Source: Lysobacterales bacterium (GTDB lineage: Bacteria; Pseudomonadota; Gammaproteobacteria; Steroidobacterales; Steroidobacteraceae). Taken from it: DNA of 39,643 nucleotides. Position 1 is the first letter of the stretch, and each line of letters begins with the position of its first letter. The notes beneath the pieces are model-generated. The model did no database searches. It was not told where the DNA came from and saw nothing but the letters and a program-made list of their open reading frames with translations. Position numbers and translations under genes: made by a program. Positions 22,860 to 27,496 of this stretch are shown here, in pieces. The stretch spans positions 1 through 39,643 of the forward strand of contig RPQJ01000022.1 in the NCBI GenBank assembly GCA_003819815.1, given 5' to 3'.

Positions 22860-25100
22860 ATGAAGACTCCCAGCAAACGCACTCGTCGCGCGTCGACACG
22901 AACCCCGGGACCCGGACGATCGCGCGCACCCCAGCGTACGCCGCCCGGCGGCGGCAATCCCGTGCTCGGCGTGCTGCGGCGCGCCGGCCGGCCACTGCGC
23001 CTCGAGGAGATCGTCGCCGCGCTCGGGCCCACGTCCGCGGCCGCGGCGCCCGCGCAGATCGAGGAGCTGCTGCGGCTCGGCGAAGTCGTCCAGAACCGCC
23101 GCGGCCAGTACTGCCTGCGCGAGCAGCTGCCGGGCCTGGTCGTGGGCACGGTCCAGGCCCATCGGAACGGCGACGGCCTGCTGCTGCCCGACGACGCCTC
23201 GGCGCCGATCCACCTGACCGCGCACGAAATGCGCGCGGTCATGCACGGCGATCGGGTCGCCGTCCGCATCGAGGGCCCGCGATTCCGCGGTCGCCCGCAG
23301 GGCTCGATCGTCGAGGTACTCGAGCGCCGCACGCGCGAAGTCGTCGGGCGCCTGCACGTCGAGGCCGGCCTGGCGCACGTGGTGGCCGACAACCCGCGGG
23401 TCACCCACCGCGTGCTGGTGCCCCCGACGGGGCTCGGCGGCGCGGAGCCGGGCCAGATCGTGATCGTCGAGCTGGTGCGACCGCCCGGGCGGGACGCCCA
23501 GCCCGTGGGCCGCGTCACGCGCGTGCTCGGCGAGCACGGCGCACCCGGCATGGAGACGGACATCGCGATCCACTCCCACTCGTTGCCGTTCGAGTTCGCG
23601 GCCGACGTCCTCGCGGAGGCCGCGGCCTACGGCACGCGGATACCGGAGGACGCGATCGCCGGCCGCGAGGACCTGCGCGGCCTGGAGCTCGTCACCATCG
23701 ACGGCGAGGACGCCCGCGACTACGACGACGCCGTCTGGTGCGAGCGCGTGCGGAGCGGCTGGCGGCTGATCGTCGCGATCGCGGACGTCGGCCATTACGT
23801 GCGGCCCGGCAGCGCACTCGACCGGGAGGCCCGCGAGCGCGGCACGTCGGTCTACTTCCCGAACCGCGTGCTGCCGATGCTGCCCGAGGCCCTCTCGAAC
23901 GGCCTGTGCTCGCTCGTGCCCGGCGAGGACCGGCTGAGCCTGTGCTGCGAGTTGCGCGTGAGCGAACAGGGCCGCATCACCCGCTCGCGGTTCTTCGAGG
24001 GCGTGATCCGCTCCGCCGCGCGACTCACCTACCGCGACGTCGGTGAGTTCCTCGCGAAGCCCGCCGCCCGTCACGCGCCCGCGCTCGAGGCGCTGCGCGA
24101 GCGCCTGCTCGCGCTGCACGGCGTCTACCGCAGCTTCATCCGGGAGCGCAGCGGCCGCGGCGCGCTCGAGCTCGACACGCCCGAGCTCAAGCTCAAGTTC
24201 GACGCGCAGGGTCGCGTGGCCGCGCTGGTCGAGCAGGCCCGCAACGACGCCCACCGGCTGATCGAGGAGTGCATGATCGCGGCGAACGTCGCCGCGGCGC
24301 GGTTCCTCGATCGTCACCGCGTCCCGACGCTGTACCGCGTGCACGGCCTGCCGGAACTCGACCGCCTCGAGACGCTGCGGCTCTTCCTGCGGGAGTTCGG
24401 CCTCTGGCTGCCCCCTGCGGAGGAGATCAAGCCCGAGCACCTGCGCGAGCTGCTGCGCCAGATCGGCGACCGGCCCGACGCGCTCCTGATCTCGACGGCG
24501 GTGATCCGCTCGATGACGCAGGCCGTCTACCAGCCGGGCAACATCGGGCACTTCGGGCTCGCGCTCGACCACTACGCGCACTTCACCTCGCCGATCCGGC
24601 GCTACCCGGACCTCGTCGTGCACCGGGGGATCCGCCAGGTGCTGCTCGCACAGGACCCGCAGGCGCTCGTCGACTGGCACGGCCCGTTCCCGGTGCTCGG
24701 CCAGGAATGCTCGTTCCGCGAGCGTCGCGCCGACGAGGCCACTCGCGGCGCCGTCGCCTGGCTCAAGTGCTACTACATGCAGGAACGCATCGGCGAGGAG
24801 TACGACGGGATCGTCTCGGGCGTCGTCGACTTCGGGTTGTTCGTGCAGCTCGAGGGGCTCCAGGTCGACGGCCTCGTGCACGTCTCGGCGCTCGGCCAGG
24901 ACTACTTCACGCGGGATCACTCCGGATTCCGGCTCGTCGGCCGCAGCTCCGGCCGGATCTACAAGCTGGGCGACCGGCTGCGGGTCCGCGTCATCAACGT
25001 CTCGCTCGACGAGCGGCGCGTCGATTTCGAGCCGGCCGGGGAGAGCGGCGAGGCGGAGCGCAGGCGACGCCGCGGCCGGCCGTTCGGCCGCCGACGCTGA
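22860..25100 (+). CDS. rnr: ribonuclease R
   Basis: Processive 3'-5' exoribonuclease of the RNase II family, able to degrade structured RNA. Order: basic N-terminal tail (about residues 1-35), winged-helix region (LGVLRRAGRPLRLEEIVAAL), cold-shock domains, the RNB catalytic domain with the Mg-binding Asp cluster in TIDGEDARDYDDAVWC, then DVGHYVRPGSALDREA, YRVHGLPELDRL and HFTSPIRRYPDLVVHR. A C-terminal S1 domain follows (YDGIVSGVVDFGLFVQLEG). 746 aa; the Lys-rich tail of E. coli RNase R is replaced by a short Arg-rich end (ERRRRRGRPFGRRR). The stop overlaps the rlmB start (TGATG). Confidence 0.96.
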   Translation: MKTPSKRTRRASTRTPGPGRSRAPQRTPPGGGNPVLGVLRRAGRPLRLEEIVAALGPTSAAAAPAQIEELLRLGEVVQNRRGQYCLREQLPGLVVGTVQAHRNGDGLLLPDDASAPIHLTAHEMRAVMHGDRVAVRIEGPRFRGRPQGSIVEVLERRTREVVGRLHVEAGLAHVVADNPRVTHRVLVPPTGLGGAEPGQIVIVELVRPPGRDAQPVGRVTRVLGEHGAPGMETDIAIHSHSLPFEFAADVLAEAAAYGTRIPEDAIAGREDLRGLELVTIDGEDARDYDDAVWCERVRSGWRLIVAIADVGHYVRPGSALDREARERGTSVYFPNRVLPMLPEALSNGLCSLVPGEDRLSLCCELRVSEQGRITRSRFFEGVIRSAARLTYRDVGEFLAKPAARHAPALEALRERLLALHGVYRSFIRERSGRGALELDTPELKLKFDAQGRVAALVEQARNDAHRLIEECMIAANVAAARFLDRHRVPTLYRVHGLPELDRLETLRLFLREFGLWLPPAEEIKPEHLRELLRQIGDRPDALLISTAVIRSMTQAVYQPGNIGHFGLALDHYAHFTSPIRRYPDLVVHRGIRQVLLAQDPQALVDWHGPFPVLGQECSFRERRADEATRGAVAWLKCYYMQERIGEEYDGIVSGVVDFGLFVQLEGLQVDGLVHVSALGQDYFTRDHSGFRLVGRSSGRIYKLGDRLRVRVINVSLDERRVDFEPAGESGEAERRRRRGRPFGRRR

Positions 25101-25861
25101 TGGCCGGGTCGATCGCCTGCGGCGTGCACGCCGTGCGGGTGTTGCTTTCGCGCACCCCGGAGCGCGTGCTGCGCGTGCATCTCGCCTCGGGCCGCGAGAT
25201 CGGGCGGCTCGCCGAGATCCGCACGCTCGCCGATCGCGCCGGCATCGCAGTCGTGGGCGCGGATCCGGCTTCGCTGGACCGGTTGGCGGAGGGCGCGCAC
25301 CACCAGGGCGTCGTCGCCGAAGTGGCGCCGCGCTCCGGCGATCCCGAGACGCAGCTCGAGCAGGCGCTCGAAACCGCCGCCGGTCCGCCGCTGCTGCTGG
25401 TGCTCGACGGCGTGCAGGACCCGCACAACCTCGGGGCCTGCCTGCGCAGCGCCGATGCAGCGGGCGTCGCTGCGGTCATCGTGCCGCGGGACCGGGCCGT
25501 GGGTCTCACGCCGGTGGTCCGCAAGGTGGCCGCCGGTGCCGCCGAGACGGTGCCGCTCGTGTCGGTCGTCAACCTCGCTCGTACGCTGCGCGAGCTCAAG
25601 GAACGGGGCATCTGGCTCGTCGGGACCGACGACTCGGCGTCGGCCACGCTGTACGACGCGGATTTCAGCGGCCCGGTGGCACTCGTGATGGGCTCGGAAG
25701 GTGAGGGCCTCAGGCGCCTGACGCGCGAGACCTGCGACCAGCTCGTGGCGATCCCGATGGCCGGCGCCGTCGAGAGCCTGAATGTGTCCGTGGCTACGGG
25801 CGTGGGGCTGTTCGAGGCCGTGCGGCAGCGGTCCGTTCAGTCGGCGCGGAAGAAGAAATAG
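25100..25861 (+). CDS. rlmB: 23S rRNA (Gm2251) 2'-O-methyltransferase
   Basis: SPOUT methyltransferase that modifies G2251 in the ribosomal P loop. The short N-terminal substrate-binding domain opens with GVHAVRVLL. The trefoil-knot domain shows LDGVQDPHNLGACLRSADAAG, VALVMGSEGEGLRRLT and IPMAGAVESLNVSVA, the SAM-binding and catalytic motifs. 253 aa, normal. It is translationally coupled to rnr, the usual gammaproteobacterial pair. The C-terminus (SARKKK) is immediately followed by the repeat array, whose first hairpin begins 22 nt after the stop. Confidence 0.95.
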   Translation: MAGSIACGVHAVRVLLSRTPERVLRVHLASGREIGRLAEIRTLADRAGIAVVGADPASLDRLAEGAHHQGVVAEVAPRSGDPETQLEQALETAAGPPLLLVLDGVQDPHNLGACLRSADAAGVAAVIVPRDRAVGLTPVVRKVAAGAAETVPLVSVVNLARTLRELKERGIWLVGTDDSASATLYDADFSGPVALVMGSEGEGLRRLTRETCDQLVAIPMAGAVESLNVSVATGVGLFEAVRQRSVQSARKKK

Positions 25862-25882
25862 CGCGTCGGGGCGTGGGTGCGG

Positions 25883-25953
25883 GCGGGCTTTCCGGGCGCA
25901 TCCCGGACTCGCGAGGAAGACATGCTCGCCCGGGATGCGCCCGGAAAGCCCGC
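25883..25953 (+). repeat. array long hairpin, copy 1
   Basis: Arms 25883-25906 and 25930-25953 are complementary over all 24 bp. The 23-nt loop contains GCGAGGAAGACATGCTCGC, which closes a further 5-bp stem (GCGAG/CTCGC). Apex orientation is taken here as forward. Confidence 0.9.
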
Positions 25954-25998
25954 TCGATACGCGGCGCCTGAGCGAGTTCTTCGCAAAGCCGAAGAGCT

Positions 25999-26089
25999 CG
26001 CACGGCGCAAGCAGCGTCACGGGGCCTCACGTCGGCATCGGCTCCCGCGCGTACCGCCGGGGTCCGGCAGGCGCTGCATGCGACGTGCA
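25999..26089 (+). repeat. array core, copy 1 (decayed)
   Basis: Begins CGCACGGCGC like the other cores and ends GCGACGTGCA, so the outer helix has two mismatches. The inner helix is lost. The most divergent core together with copy 4. Confidence 0.6.
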
Positions 26090-26132
26090 ATCGGGTGGAT
26101 CCGGCTGGGCGCGCAACGTCGGGCCGGTGGCA

Positions 26133-26203
26133 GCGGGCATTCCGGGCGCGTTCCGGACTCGCGAGGAAGACATGCTCGCCCGGGATGCGCCCGGAAAGCC
26201 CGC
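26133..26203 (+). repeat. array long hairpin, copy 2
   Basis: Exactly 250 bp after copy 1. The right arm and apex are identical to copy 1; the left arm differs at three positions, so this stem is slightly imperfect. Forward apex. Confidence 0.9.
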
Positions 26204-26248
26204 TCGATACACGGCGCCTGAGCGAGTTCTACGCCGATCCGGCGAACT

Positions 26249-26339
26249 CGCACGGCGCAAGCAGCGTCACCGGATCCCATGCCGGGCAGCGGCTGCATCC
26301 GTTCAGCGTGGGTCCGGTGGGCGCTGCATGCGCCGTGCG
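26249..26339 (+). repeat. array core, copy 2 (structured)
   Basis: Outer helix CGCACGGCGC (26249-26258) with GCGCCGTGCG (26330-26339) is perfect. Inner helix CACCGGATCC (26268-26277) with GGGTCCGGTG (26310-26319) pairs with one T-G wobble. Confidence 0.75.
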
Positions 26340-26343
26340 ATGC

Positions 26344-26365
26344 GGTGAGCCGTTCAAGGCTCACC
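26344..26365. repeat. array small hairpin, copy 1
   Basis: GGTGAGCC-GTTCAA-GGCTCACC, perfect 8-bp stem, between core 2 and long hairpin 3. Confidence 0.8.
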
Positions 26366-26388
26366 CCGTCGCTCAGGCGCCCGACATC

Positions 26389-26460
26389 AGGCGGGGGATC
26401 GGGGGCTTCCCGGGCGAGCATGTCTTCTTCGCGAGTCCGGAAGCCCCCGATCCTCTGCCT
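26389..26460 (-). repeat. array long hairpin, copy 3 (apex inverted)
   Basis: The apex GCGAGCATGTCTTCTTCGC (26414-26432) is the reverse complement of copies 1-2 with one change. Arms are different in sequence (GGATCGGGGGCTTC type) but still pair. Outside them GTCGCTCAGGCG (from 26369) can pair with CGCCTGGGCGAC (to 26482) across a 9x9 internal loop, extending the hairpin to about 114 nt. Confidence 0.88.
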
Positions 26461-26500
26461 GAGCACAGACGCCTGGGCGACTTCACCGGGCCGAAGAACT

Positions 26501-26591
26501 CGCACGGCGCAAGCAACGTCACCGGACCCCATGCCGGGTAGCGGCTGCACCCGTTCAGCGTGGGTCCGGTGGGCGCTGCATGCGCCGTGCG
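26501..26591 (+). repeat. array core, copy 3 (structured, best copy)
   Basis: Outer helix 26501-26510/26582-26591 and inner helix CACCGGACCC (26520-26529)/GGGTCCGGTG (26562-26571) are both perfect over 10 bp. A third stem CGGGT/ACCCG (26535-26539/26549-26553) sits inside. Nested helices of this kind look like a folded RNA or a single-stranded DNA structure. Confidence 0.75.
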
Positions 26592-26593
26592 AT

Positions 26594-26619
26594 GGGGTGA
26601 GCCGTTCGAGGCTCACCCC
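26594..26619. repeat. array small hairpin, copy 2
   Basis: Ten-bp perfect stem GGGGTGAGCC/GGCTCACCCC with loop GTTCGA, between core 3 and long hairpin 4. Confidence 0.8.
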
Positions 26620-26641
26620 GTCGCTCAGGCGCCCGGCATCA

Positions 26642-26713
26642 GGCGGGGGATCGGGGGGCTATCCGGGCGAGCATGTCTTCCTCGCGAACCCGGGTAGCCC
26701 CCCGATCCCCGCC
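26642..26713 (-). repeat. array long hairpin, copy 4 (apex inverted)
   Basis: Arms 26642-26666 and 26690-26713 pair over 24 positions with one G-T wobble and one bulged G. Arm sequence is unlike copy 1 except next to the apex. The apex is inverted. Confidence 0.9.
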
Positions 26714-26761
26714 CTGAACCTCCGCGGCGGCCGTGCGAGCTCTAGGCCGATCCAGTGAACT

Positions 26762-26853
26762 CGCACGCCGCAAGCAACGTCACCGAACCCCGCCGTACGC
26801 ATTGGCTGCCGGACGTGCCGCCGGGATCCGGTGGGCGTTACATGCGCCGTGCG
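26762..26853 (+). repeat. array core, copy 4 (decayed)
   Basis: Recognisable by CGCACGCCGCAAGCAACG and the end GCGCCGTGCG, but the interior has many changes and only partial pairing remains. Confidence 0.6.
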
Positions 26854-26855
26854 AT

Positions 26856-26881
26856 GGGGGGAGCCGTTCGAGGCTCACCCC
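26856..26881. repeat. array small hairpin, copy 3
   Basis: Same hairpin with a single T-to-G change in the left arm that breaks one pair, between core 4 and long hairpin 5. Confidence 0.75.
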
Positions 26882-26903
26882 GTCGCTCAGGCGCCCGACA
26901 TCA

Positions 26904-26975
26904 GGCGGGGGATCGGGGGGCTATCCGGGCGAGCATGTCTTCCTCGCGAACCCGGGTAGCCCCCCGATCCCCGCC
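26904..26975 (-). repeat. array long hairpin, copy 5 (apex inverted)
   Basis: Identical to copy 4 over the hairpin. It is the last element; no core follows. The candidate rpsF promoter begins 18 nt downstream, so transcripts or polymerases crossing the array meet this hairpin last. Confidence 0.9.
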
Positions 26976-26993
26976 CAGGACCCGCCGCAGCAG

Positions 26994-27112: not shown

Positions 27113-27496
27113 GTGCGTCACTACGAGATCGTGTTTCTGGTCCACCCTGACCAGAGCGAGCAGGTTCCGGCCATGATCGAGCGCTACCGCGGCATGATCG
27201 CCACGGGCGGCGGCGCGATCCATCGCGTCGAGGACTGGGGCCGCCGGCAGCTGGCGTATCCGATCGCCAAGGTGCACAAGGCGCATTACGTGCTGATGAA
27301 CATCGAGGCGGACAAGAAGACCCTCGACGAGCTCACCGGCGCGTTCCGGTTCAGCGACGCCGTGATCCGTCACCTCGTCGTGTCCATGCCGGCAGCCGTC
27401 GTCGAGCCGTCGCCGATGGCCCGCGCCGAAGAGGAAGGGACCCGCGAGGATGGCGGCGCGCCCGAGAGCTCGGACGAGTCGGCCTCCGCCGCCTGA
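27113..27496 (+). CDS. rpsF: ribosomal protein S6
   Basis: 30S subunit protein that binds S18 and the central domain of 16S r[23 protein letters not shown] at the N-terminus, then [21 protein letters not shown], are diagnostic. The last ~25 residues (from about [12 protein letters not shown]) form an acidic tail that, in E. coli S6, receives added glutamates. The start is GTG 27113 with AAAGGGAG at 27097-27103. 127 aa. The next gene is rpsR directly; priB, which lies between them in enterics, is absent. Confidence 0.97.

Follow-up and report, generated by a model that had tools for sequence, protein, structure and literature searches.

Integron attC sites and the ends of IS200/IS605 elements are recombination substrates in the form of folded strands, which are read by their structure and whose stems can vary. 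REPs are short non-coding palindromes that lie mostly between convergent or unidirectional genes and often form head-to-head pairs, and some of their families have long self-complementary inner loops, of up to 27 bp in GTAG-14, as described in sections of the survey by Di Nocera et al. (2013; PMC3733652). Arm homogenisation together with spacer inversion is given as the mark of template switching in part of one report (PMC8604942), and part of another (PMC8794818) attributes to it compensatory changes of several bases.

The window analysed here, a stretch of 39,643 nucleotides from a Lysobacterales bacterium (GenBank assembly GCA_003819815.1, contig RPQJ01000022.1), contains between rlmB and rpsF an array of five repeat units (25880-26978; Table 1), each made of a long hairpin (H1), whose purine-rich apex is conserved, and a smaller one (H2) behind it. 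The five long hairpins at 250-262 bp described in the initial annotation are borne out by the apex positions (starts at 25911, 26161, 26414, 26667 and 26929, spaced by 250, 253, 253 and 262) and by the single-stranded DNA folds predicted for H1 of copies 1-5, which reach -45.7, -35.2, -28.3, -35.9 and -34.8 kcal/mol (z of -10.3, -6.4, -5.1, -6.0 and -6.3), with 0 of 200 shuffles as stable in each case. With as many as 3 mismatches allowed, the window has 5 matches to the 19-nt apex against 0.05 expected, and the extragenic position assigned to the array stands, both flanking genes scoring above the cut-offs of their profiles. Units 1-2 lie on the plus strand and units 3-5, their reverse complements, on the minus strand; because copies 3-5 are inverted, the arms of copies 1 and 4, rightly described as almost unrelated with each pairing, had been quoted in opposite orientations, and they still differ in unit orientation. 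H1 of copies 3 and 4 is flanked on both sides by H2-like stretches. At gathering score, the Rfam matches of the window are two tRNAs and nothing else.

Table 1. Features of the array and its flanking genes (window coordinates)
Feature	Position	Strand	Parts	Evidence
rlmB, left neighbour	25100..25861	+		TIGR00186, 246 bits, above cut-off
Unit 1	25880..26022	+	H1 25880-25956 (apex 25911-25929), H2 25964-26008, tail	model 136.9 bits, H2 pattern, fold
Unit 2	26130..26272	+	H1 26130-26206, H2 26214-26258, tail	model 121.6 bits, H2 pattern, fold
Unit 3, inverted	26316..26461	-	H2 26330-26380, H1 about 26385-26461	model 90.1 bits, H2 pattern, fold
Degenerate second H2, opposite side of unit 3 H1	26388..26524	+		model 73.7 bits, + strand; sequence read
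Unit 4, inverted	26568..26716	-	H2 26582-26632, H1 about 26638-26716	model 98.6 bits, H2 pattern, fold
Degenerate second H2, opposite side of unit 4 H1	26640..26785	+		model 66.6 bits, + strand
Unit 5, inverted	26830..26978	-	H2 26844-26894, H1 about 26900-26978	model 97.7 bits, H2 pattern, fold
rpsF, right neighbour	27113..27496	+		TIGR00166, 109 bits, above cut-off

H1 alone measures about 75 nt, with arms of about 26-31 bp, and the covariance model of the unit, built on an alignment of 32 units, spans 146 positions. H2 has a conserved foot (GCGCC-TGA-GC ... GC-AC-GGCGC) and a variable, self-complementary inner stem, and is weaker than H1: the two H2 folded give z of -3.0 and -2.6, equalled by 1 and 3 of 200 shuffles. 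Across 119 hairpins of the repeat family, H2 stands on the expected side in 76 (on both sides in 2) and on the opposite side in 1, the hairpin with the inverted apex described below. In the remaining 42 no H2 was recognised, a limit of the regular expression; several of them, inspected by eye, have an H2 that is degenerate or reduced. Pairing between the H1 apex and H2, promising in the window, failed by eye in other copies. Variants were also seen. An H1 sub-family with a different apex, CGCGAAATGAGATTTCGCG, occurs at L244:1873-1998, L244:5900-6028 and L042:2647-2772 (G000), and at L289:6723-6803 (G007:C224) H2 is present and H1 has shrunk to its joined bases, CAGGCGGCCGCTTG, as if excised or palindrome-deleted. 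A second palindrome type, GGGGAC...GTCCCC, stands alone in G007 (L285:14308-14380, L287:188-258), is found also within the H2 inner stem of L242 (G008), and resembles the GGGGWSAS motif of RAYT-linked TIRs mentioned in part of a published survey (PMC3733652).

Searches of the genome and its relatives with DNA sequence, the H2 pattern and a covariance model, the last as originally proposed, returned a second array, more copies, and the repeat family in all 9 genomes of the genus; the prospect that the sequence might be unique to this locus is thus not borne out, relatives carrying paired arms elsewhere. The second array of the window's genome (C36:17890-18705) has four units in the order ++--, and further copies lie on C44, C57, C110 and C181. 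With the covariance model under stricter filters, the repeat family was found in 0 of the 191 other genomes among 200 of the bacterial family, and when 60 genomes were searched at the DNA level, 10 of them matched, of which 8 are of the genus (the window's own included) and 2, short and weak, lie outside it. Model matches per genus genome, with no more than 150 candidates scored in each, number 115, 99, 87, 30, 7, 4, 4, 3 and 1, figures that exceed the true unit numbers because a palindrome matches on the other strand too. The exact H2 pattern occurs 14 times in G000, 15 in G004, 15 in G005, 14 in G007 and 3 in both G002 and G008, whereas G001, G003 and G006 lack it; its reversed control appears once in total. 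Among 80 listed of at least 119 contig stretches elsewhere, a unit is present only in three of JAPLSF01, a Lake Pavin sediment MAG that shares contig coordinates with G004, the next best reaching 29.1 bits; there may be rare carriers outside the genus. A viral origin was rejected, as the 40 apex and 12 H2 pattern matches of a viral search score at most 21.5 bits by the model.

At orthologous sites in the three unit-rich species, a unit is present on both sides in 40 of 40 testable rows, the place having been found for 28 of 81 clusters in stretches that had been chosen for having units. The rlmB-rpsF interval, on the other hand, is without a unit in all four relatives that have both genes on one stretch (G003, G004, G005 and G008), so that the array was gained in this lineage or else lost in all four. 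By eye, the interval holds other, unrelated palindromes of CTAACC-like composition in L344 (G008) and L346 (G005).

On balance, these data probably describe a genus-restricted family of dispersed non-coding palindromic repeats, mostly behind genes, which are REP/BIME-like and whose hairpins are kept near-perfect by arm-to-arm template switching and by the exchange of whole hairpins. As far as the data go, this upkeep is by copying and not by compensatory RNA evolution. The conserved apex between arms that vary with their pairing kept, a central point of the initial annotation, is confirmed in the 32-unit alignment, where 27 of 33 H1 pairs change on both sides and the covariation score of 0.536 compares with 0.177 for shuffled controls (0 of 500 reach it) and at most 0.174 for slid ones. 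Over 116 distinct H1 (3248 pairs), 5.3% of pairs are non-Watson-Crick, and 36 H1 are perfect across 28 bp. Between orthologous H1, 191 of 594 pair positions differ in 22 comparisons (21 among G004, G005 and G007, non-independent within these three related species, and one between G006 and G008), some of those scored as unpaired being one-base indels, and 127 of the 191 are mirrored (73 transversions, 54 transitions), where arms changing independently would, by our estimate, give a few per cent. These comparisons omit two with L336 and one with an inverted apex, in which the apex pattern failed. At one orthologous site (G004 L333 against G005 L305) the same arms enclose the apex in opposite orientation, an inversion in place, and it is from the mirrored changes and this single inversion that we infer template switching: during replication one arm would template the other (quasipalindrome template switching), which would leave the arms alike and make a flip of the apex possible. 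The repeats thereby resemble inverted repeats homogenised in this manner, with arms alike, several compensatory changes at once and spacer inversion, as far as these are covered in parts of two reports (PMC8604942, PMC8794818); there the process concerns short repeats of yeast genes and RNA genes, whereas here the repeats are dispersed, have long stems and also undergo hairpin replacement. Counting against template switching, mirrored transitions exceed transversions between close copies (514 to 305, from non-independent pairs).

Exchange of hairpins is visible as a pattern: near-identical whole H1 occur at unrelated sites and take each other's place at orthologous ones, with the result that the two arms change together. 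In 5 of 11 orthologous pairs (those comparable out of 14), H1 identity is 0.42-0.61, yet one partner or both have a match of 0.91-1.00 among the non-orthologous H1, although one of these best matches (L336, 0.95) is itself a third orthologue. In three cases (L318:717, L286:10027 and L286:10323) the non-orthologous match, at 0.98-1.00, comes from the same genome. One hairpin of G005 recurs unchanged at three sites whose surroundings are unrelated; measured from a point in the apex, the identity extends for 37-38 nt on the upstream side and 39-60 nt on the downstream side. A wider set of non-allelic near-identical pairs (84 pairs of 51 hairpins, 33 of the pairs having both members in a single genome) was selected on arm identity (-25 to -1 and +16 to +40) and unrelated distant flanks, so that identity inside the hairpin is by choice and only the fall outside it is informative: just outside, identity on the upstream side is 0.35-0.57, against 0.26-0.35 in the control, and on the downstream side mostly 0.4-0.7, against 0.3-0.6. 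The shared piece is therefore scarcely more than the hairpin, and the residual identity outside it fits relics, linker and H2 foot. A second apex lies 41-120 nt upstream in 31 of 112 H1, at exactly 57 nt in 22 and at 57-60 nt in 28, against 2 of 112 in the downstream control, and L338/L319 and L331/L304 look like before/after pairs, with the old left arm and apex, a new hairpin and a similar H2. Replacement would thus sometimes leave behind, 57 nt upstream, a relic that consists of the former left arm and apex, while the enzymology of the exchange is something we only infer. Behind one pilT-family gene (assigned from a 90-residue piece that scores 60 bits with TIGR01420, less than the cut-off for the whole protein), H1 is present in four species with four different arms, and a fifth species has none. 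Neither the inversion of units 3-5, nor H2, nor the divergence of arms partly through replacement of whole hairpins was part of the earlier picture.

It is conceivable, although we hold it to be distinctly less probable, that a dedicated trans-acting enzyme recognises the apex together with the shape of the hairpin, using H1 as a folded single strand for its substrate and replacing H1 as its reaction; the arms would then be free to vary and be kept paired by the need for mobility. In an equally tentative form of this idea, H1 would be mobile DNA of a new kind, a gene-less hairpin cassette that travels as one folded strand from one conserved dock to another and ousts the hairpin residing there, either close to the base of that hairpin or at the apex, a putative trans-acting enzyme reading apex and shape but not the arms, and template switching keeping the cassette near-perfect and so mobile. 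Consistent with such an enzyme are the fixed distance in 22 of the 31 upstream apices, the identity of the three-site G005 hairpin, which stops close to the base, the conserved apex, the strand asymmetry of H1 mismatches and, within the limit of the regular expression, the 42 of 119 H1 without a recognised H2. However, the 57 nt could descend from one founder through recombination at the apex, and no dedicated enzyme was found. The hairpin with its variable stem is like attC and the IS200/IS605 ends, but a linked enzyme was not found for the present repeats. Y1 transposases were detected in 6 of the 9 genus genomes (that of G000 above the REP_Tyr_transpos cut-off) and not in G001, G004 or G007 (78-85% complete, two of the three unit-rich), and the unit motif is absent from all six Y1 loci (2.3-3.3 kb). 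Reverse transcriptases (PF00078) were found in G004 and G007 only, with none in G005 (91% complete) or G000, and a retron-like origin was rejected since presence of the gene does not track copy number. An autonomous element was likewise rejected: 8 long inter-unit stretches share no common sequence bar two orthologous pairs, and their open reading frames show no mobile gene by eye.

Cleavage by SbcCD at the apex, initially favoured as the start of the exchange, was dropped because no SbcD (TIGR00619) scores above cut-off in the 9 genus genomes or in 60 genomes drawn from the bacterial family, of which 4 belong to the genus; the profile is passed by 8 of 14 control genomes. Partial matches under the cut-off occur in 1 of the 9 and 6 of the 60, and the bacterial family may have a diverged SbcD-type nuclease. 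In E. coli, SbcCD cuts long palindromes, and a strain with a 460-bp perfect palindrome grows normally with SbcCD repressed, according to part of one study (PMC4245961). Lack of SbcD may permit many long palindromes, but it fails to explain the restriction to the genus because repeat-free relatives lack SbcD too. None of Y1 transposase, reverse transcriptase and SbcD tracks the repeat family.

Improbable, in our assessment, is a structured RNA, for which the opposite strand is the likeliest source and whose stems selection would maintain through compensatory mutations. The strong covariation and the position of units behind genes would suit it, as would the H1 mismatches, which on the element strand are A.C in 84 cases and G.T in 17 (57 to 17, 70 to 17 and 50 to 17 as distinct events at 80%, 90% and 70% clustering) and so amount on the opposite strand to an excess of G.U or G.T (84 against 17 A.C). 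The fivefold excess of A.C over G.T in H1 is not what plain template switching would lead one to expect and counts against that account; it could reflect a functional hairpin of the opposite strand, as RNA or DNA, or selection on that strand. Yet mismatches in H2 are even (19 to 19, in 63 of 75 H2, the remainder being too poorly paired), the Rfam matches of the window are confined to the two tRNAs, and stems are replaced by copies from other sites. The arms are, moreover, less identical than the flanks (0.83 against 0.92, p 0.0003, in 23 overlapping comparisons) and than H2 with tail (0.89, p 0.015), and mirrored transversions outnumber transitions, as given above. Of the two causes proposed at the outset, selection for structure or arm-to-arm correction, arm-to-arm copying fits better than RNA selection on the element strand, because mirrored transversions exceed transitions, A.C exceeds G.T, and one apex is inverted in place.

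The genomic context of the units is REP-like, in keeping with the main reading above, but ordinary REP/REPIN elements mobilised by a RAYT transposase of the genus are very unlikely. The 134 model matches examined, picked by hand from 248 with opposite-strand shadows omitted, come from 848 kb made up of the window, four stretches of G000 and 60 of the three unit-rich species, and they include 36 convergent neighbours against 3 in ++ and 3 in -- order, and minus-then-plus neighbours never occur as separate hairpins, the two exceptions sharing one H1. As judged by a home-made gene finder, which missed rlmB, 35 of 82 clusters lie between convergent genes, 24 between tandem genes and 2 between divergent genes, while 9 run into a predicted gene and a neighbour is missing on one side of 12, compared with 64, 120 and 53 convergent, tandem and divergent cases for all gaps of at least 100. 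The units may also have a side role at the 3' ends of genes. In being extragenic, behind genes and in head-to-head (convergent) pairs, the units are like REP/BIME, with a context similar to that reported in part of the literature (PMC3733652), and the Y1 transposases of six genomes, one above the REP_Tyr_transpos cut-off, could suggest the same. Unlike the 20-40 nt REP/BIME palindromes, however, the unit comprises two hairpins over 146 model positions, with an H1 of about 75 nt; GTAG is found in 0 of 99 cases within the 6 nt 5' of H2, and the 3' tail has GTAG/CTAC in 4 of 99 and CGTC in 25 of 99. Unlike GTAG-type REPs, no RAYT gene is flanked by the repeat at the 6 Y1 loci, and three genomes, two of them unit-rich (78-85% complete), have no Y1 match; hairpin replacement and relics further set the present repeats apart. 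The family is thus REP-like, yet membership among REPs fails on size, tag and linked transposase. The early suggestion of an undescribed system holds insofar as no description of the family was found in the open-licence PMC literature, motif strings included, and is qualified by its resemblance to REP/BIME as a kind. A local accident of tandem duplication, which the mutual resemblance of the window's units might evoke, has next to no probability, being contradicted by the genus-wide occurrence of units in 9 of 9 genomes.

With more than 100 paralogous hairpins from closely related species, the repeats form a natural library for watching how long stems stay near-perfectly paired while their letters change. 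Covariation is commonly read as proof that an RNA is functional; in these repeats it beats every shuffled and slid control though copying at the DNA level explains it better, which should caution those who look for RNAs by covariation. The interesting part of the system is the transfer step: if it is true that the hairpin is the transferred unit, this would be a gene-less cassette system, whose docks and relics would permit before/after comparison.
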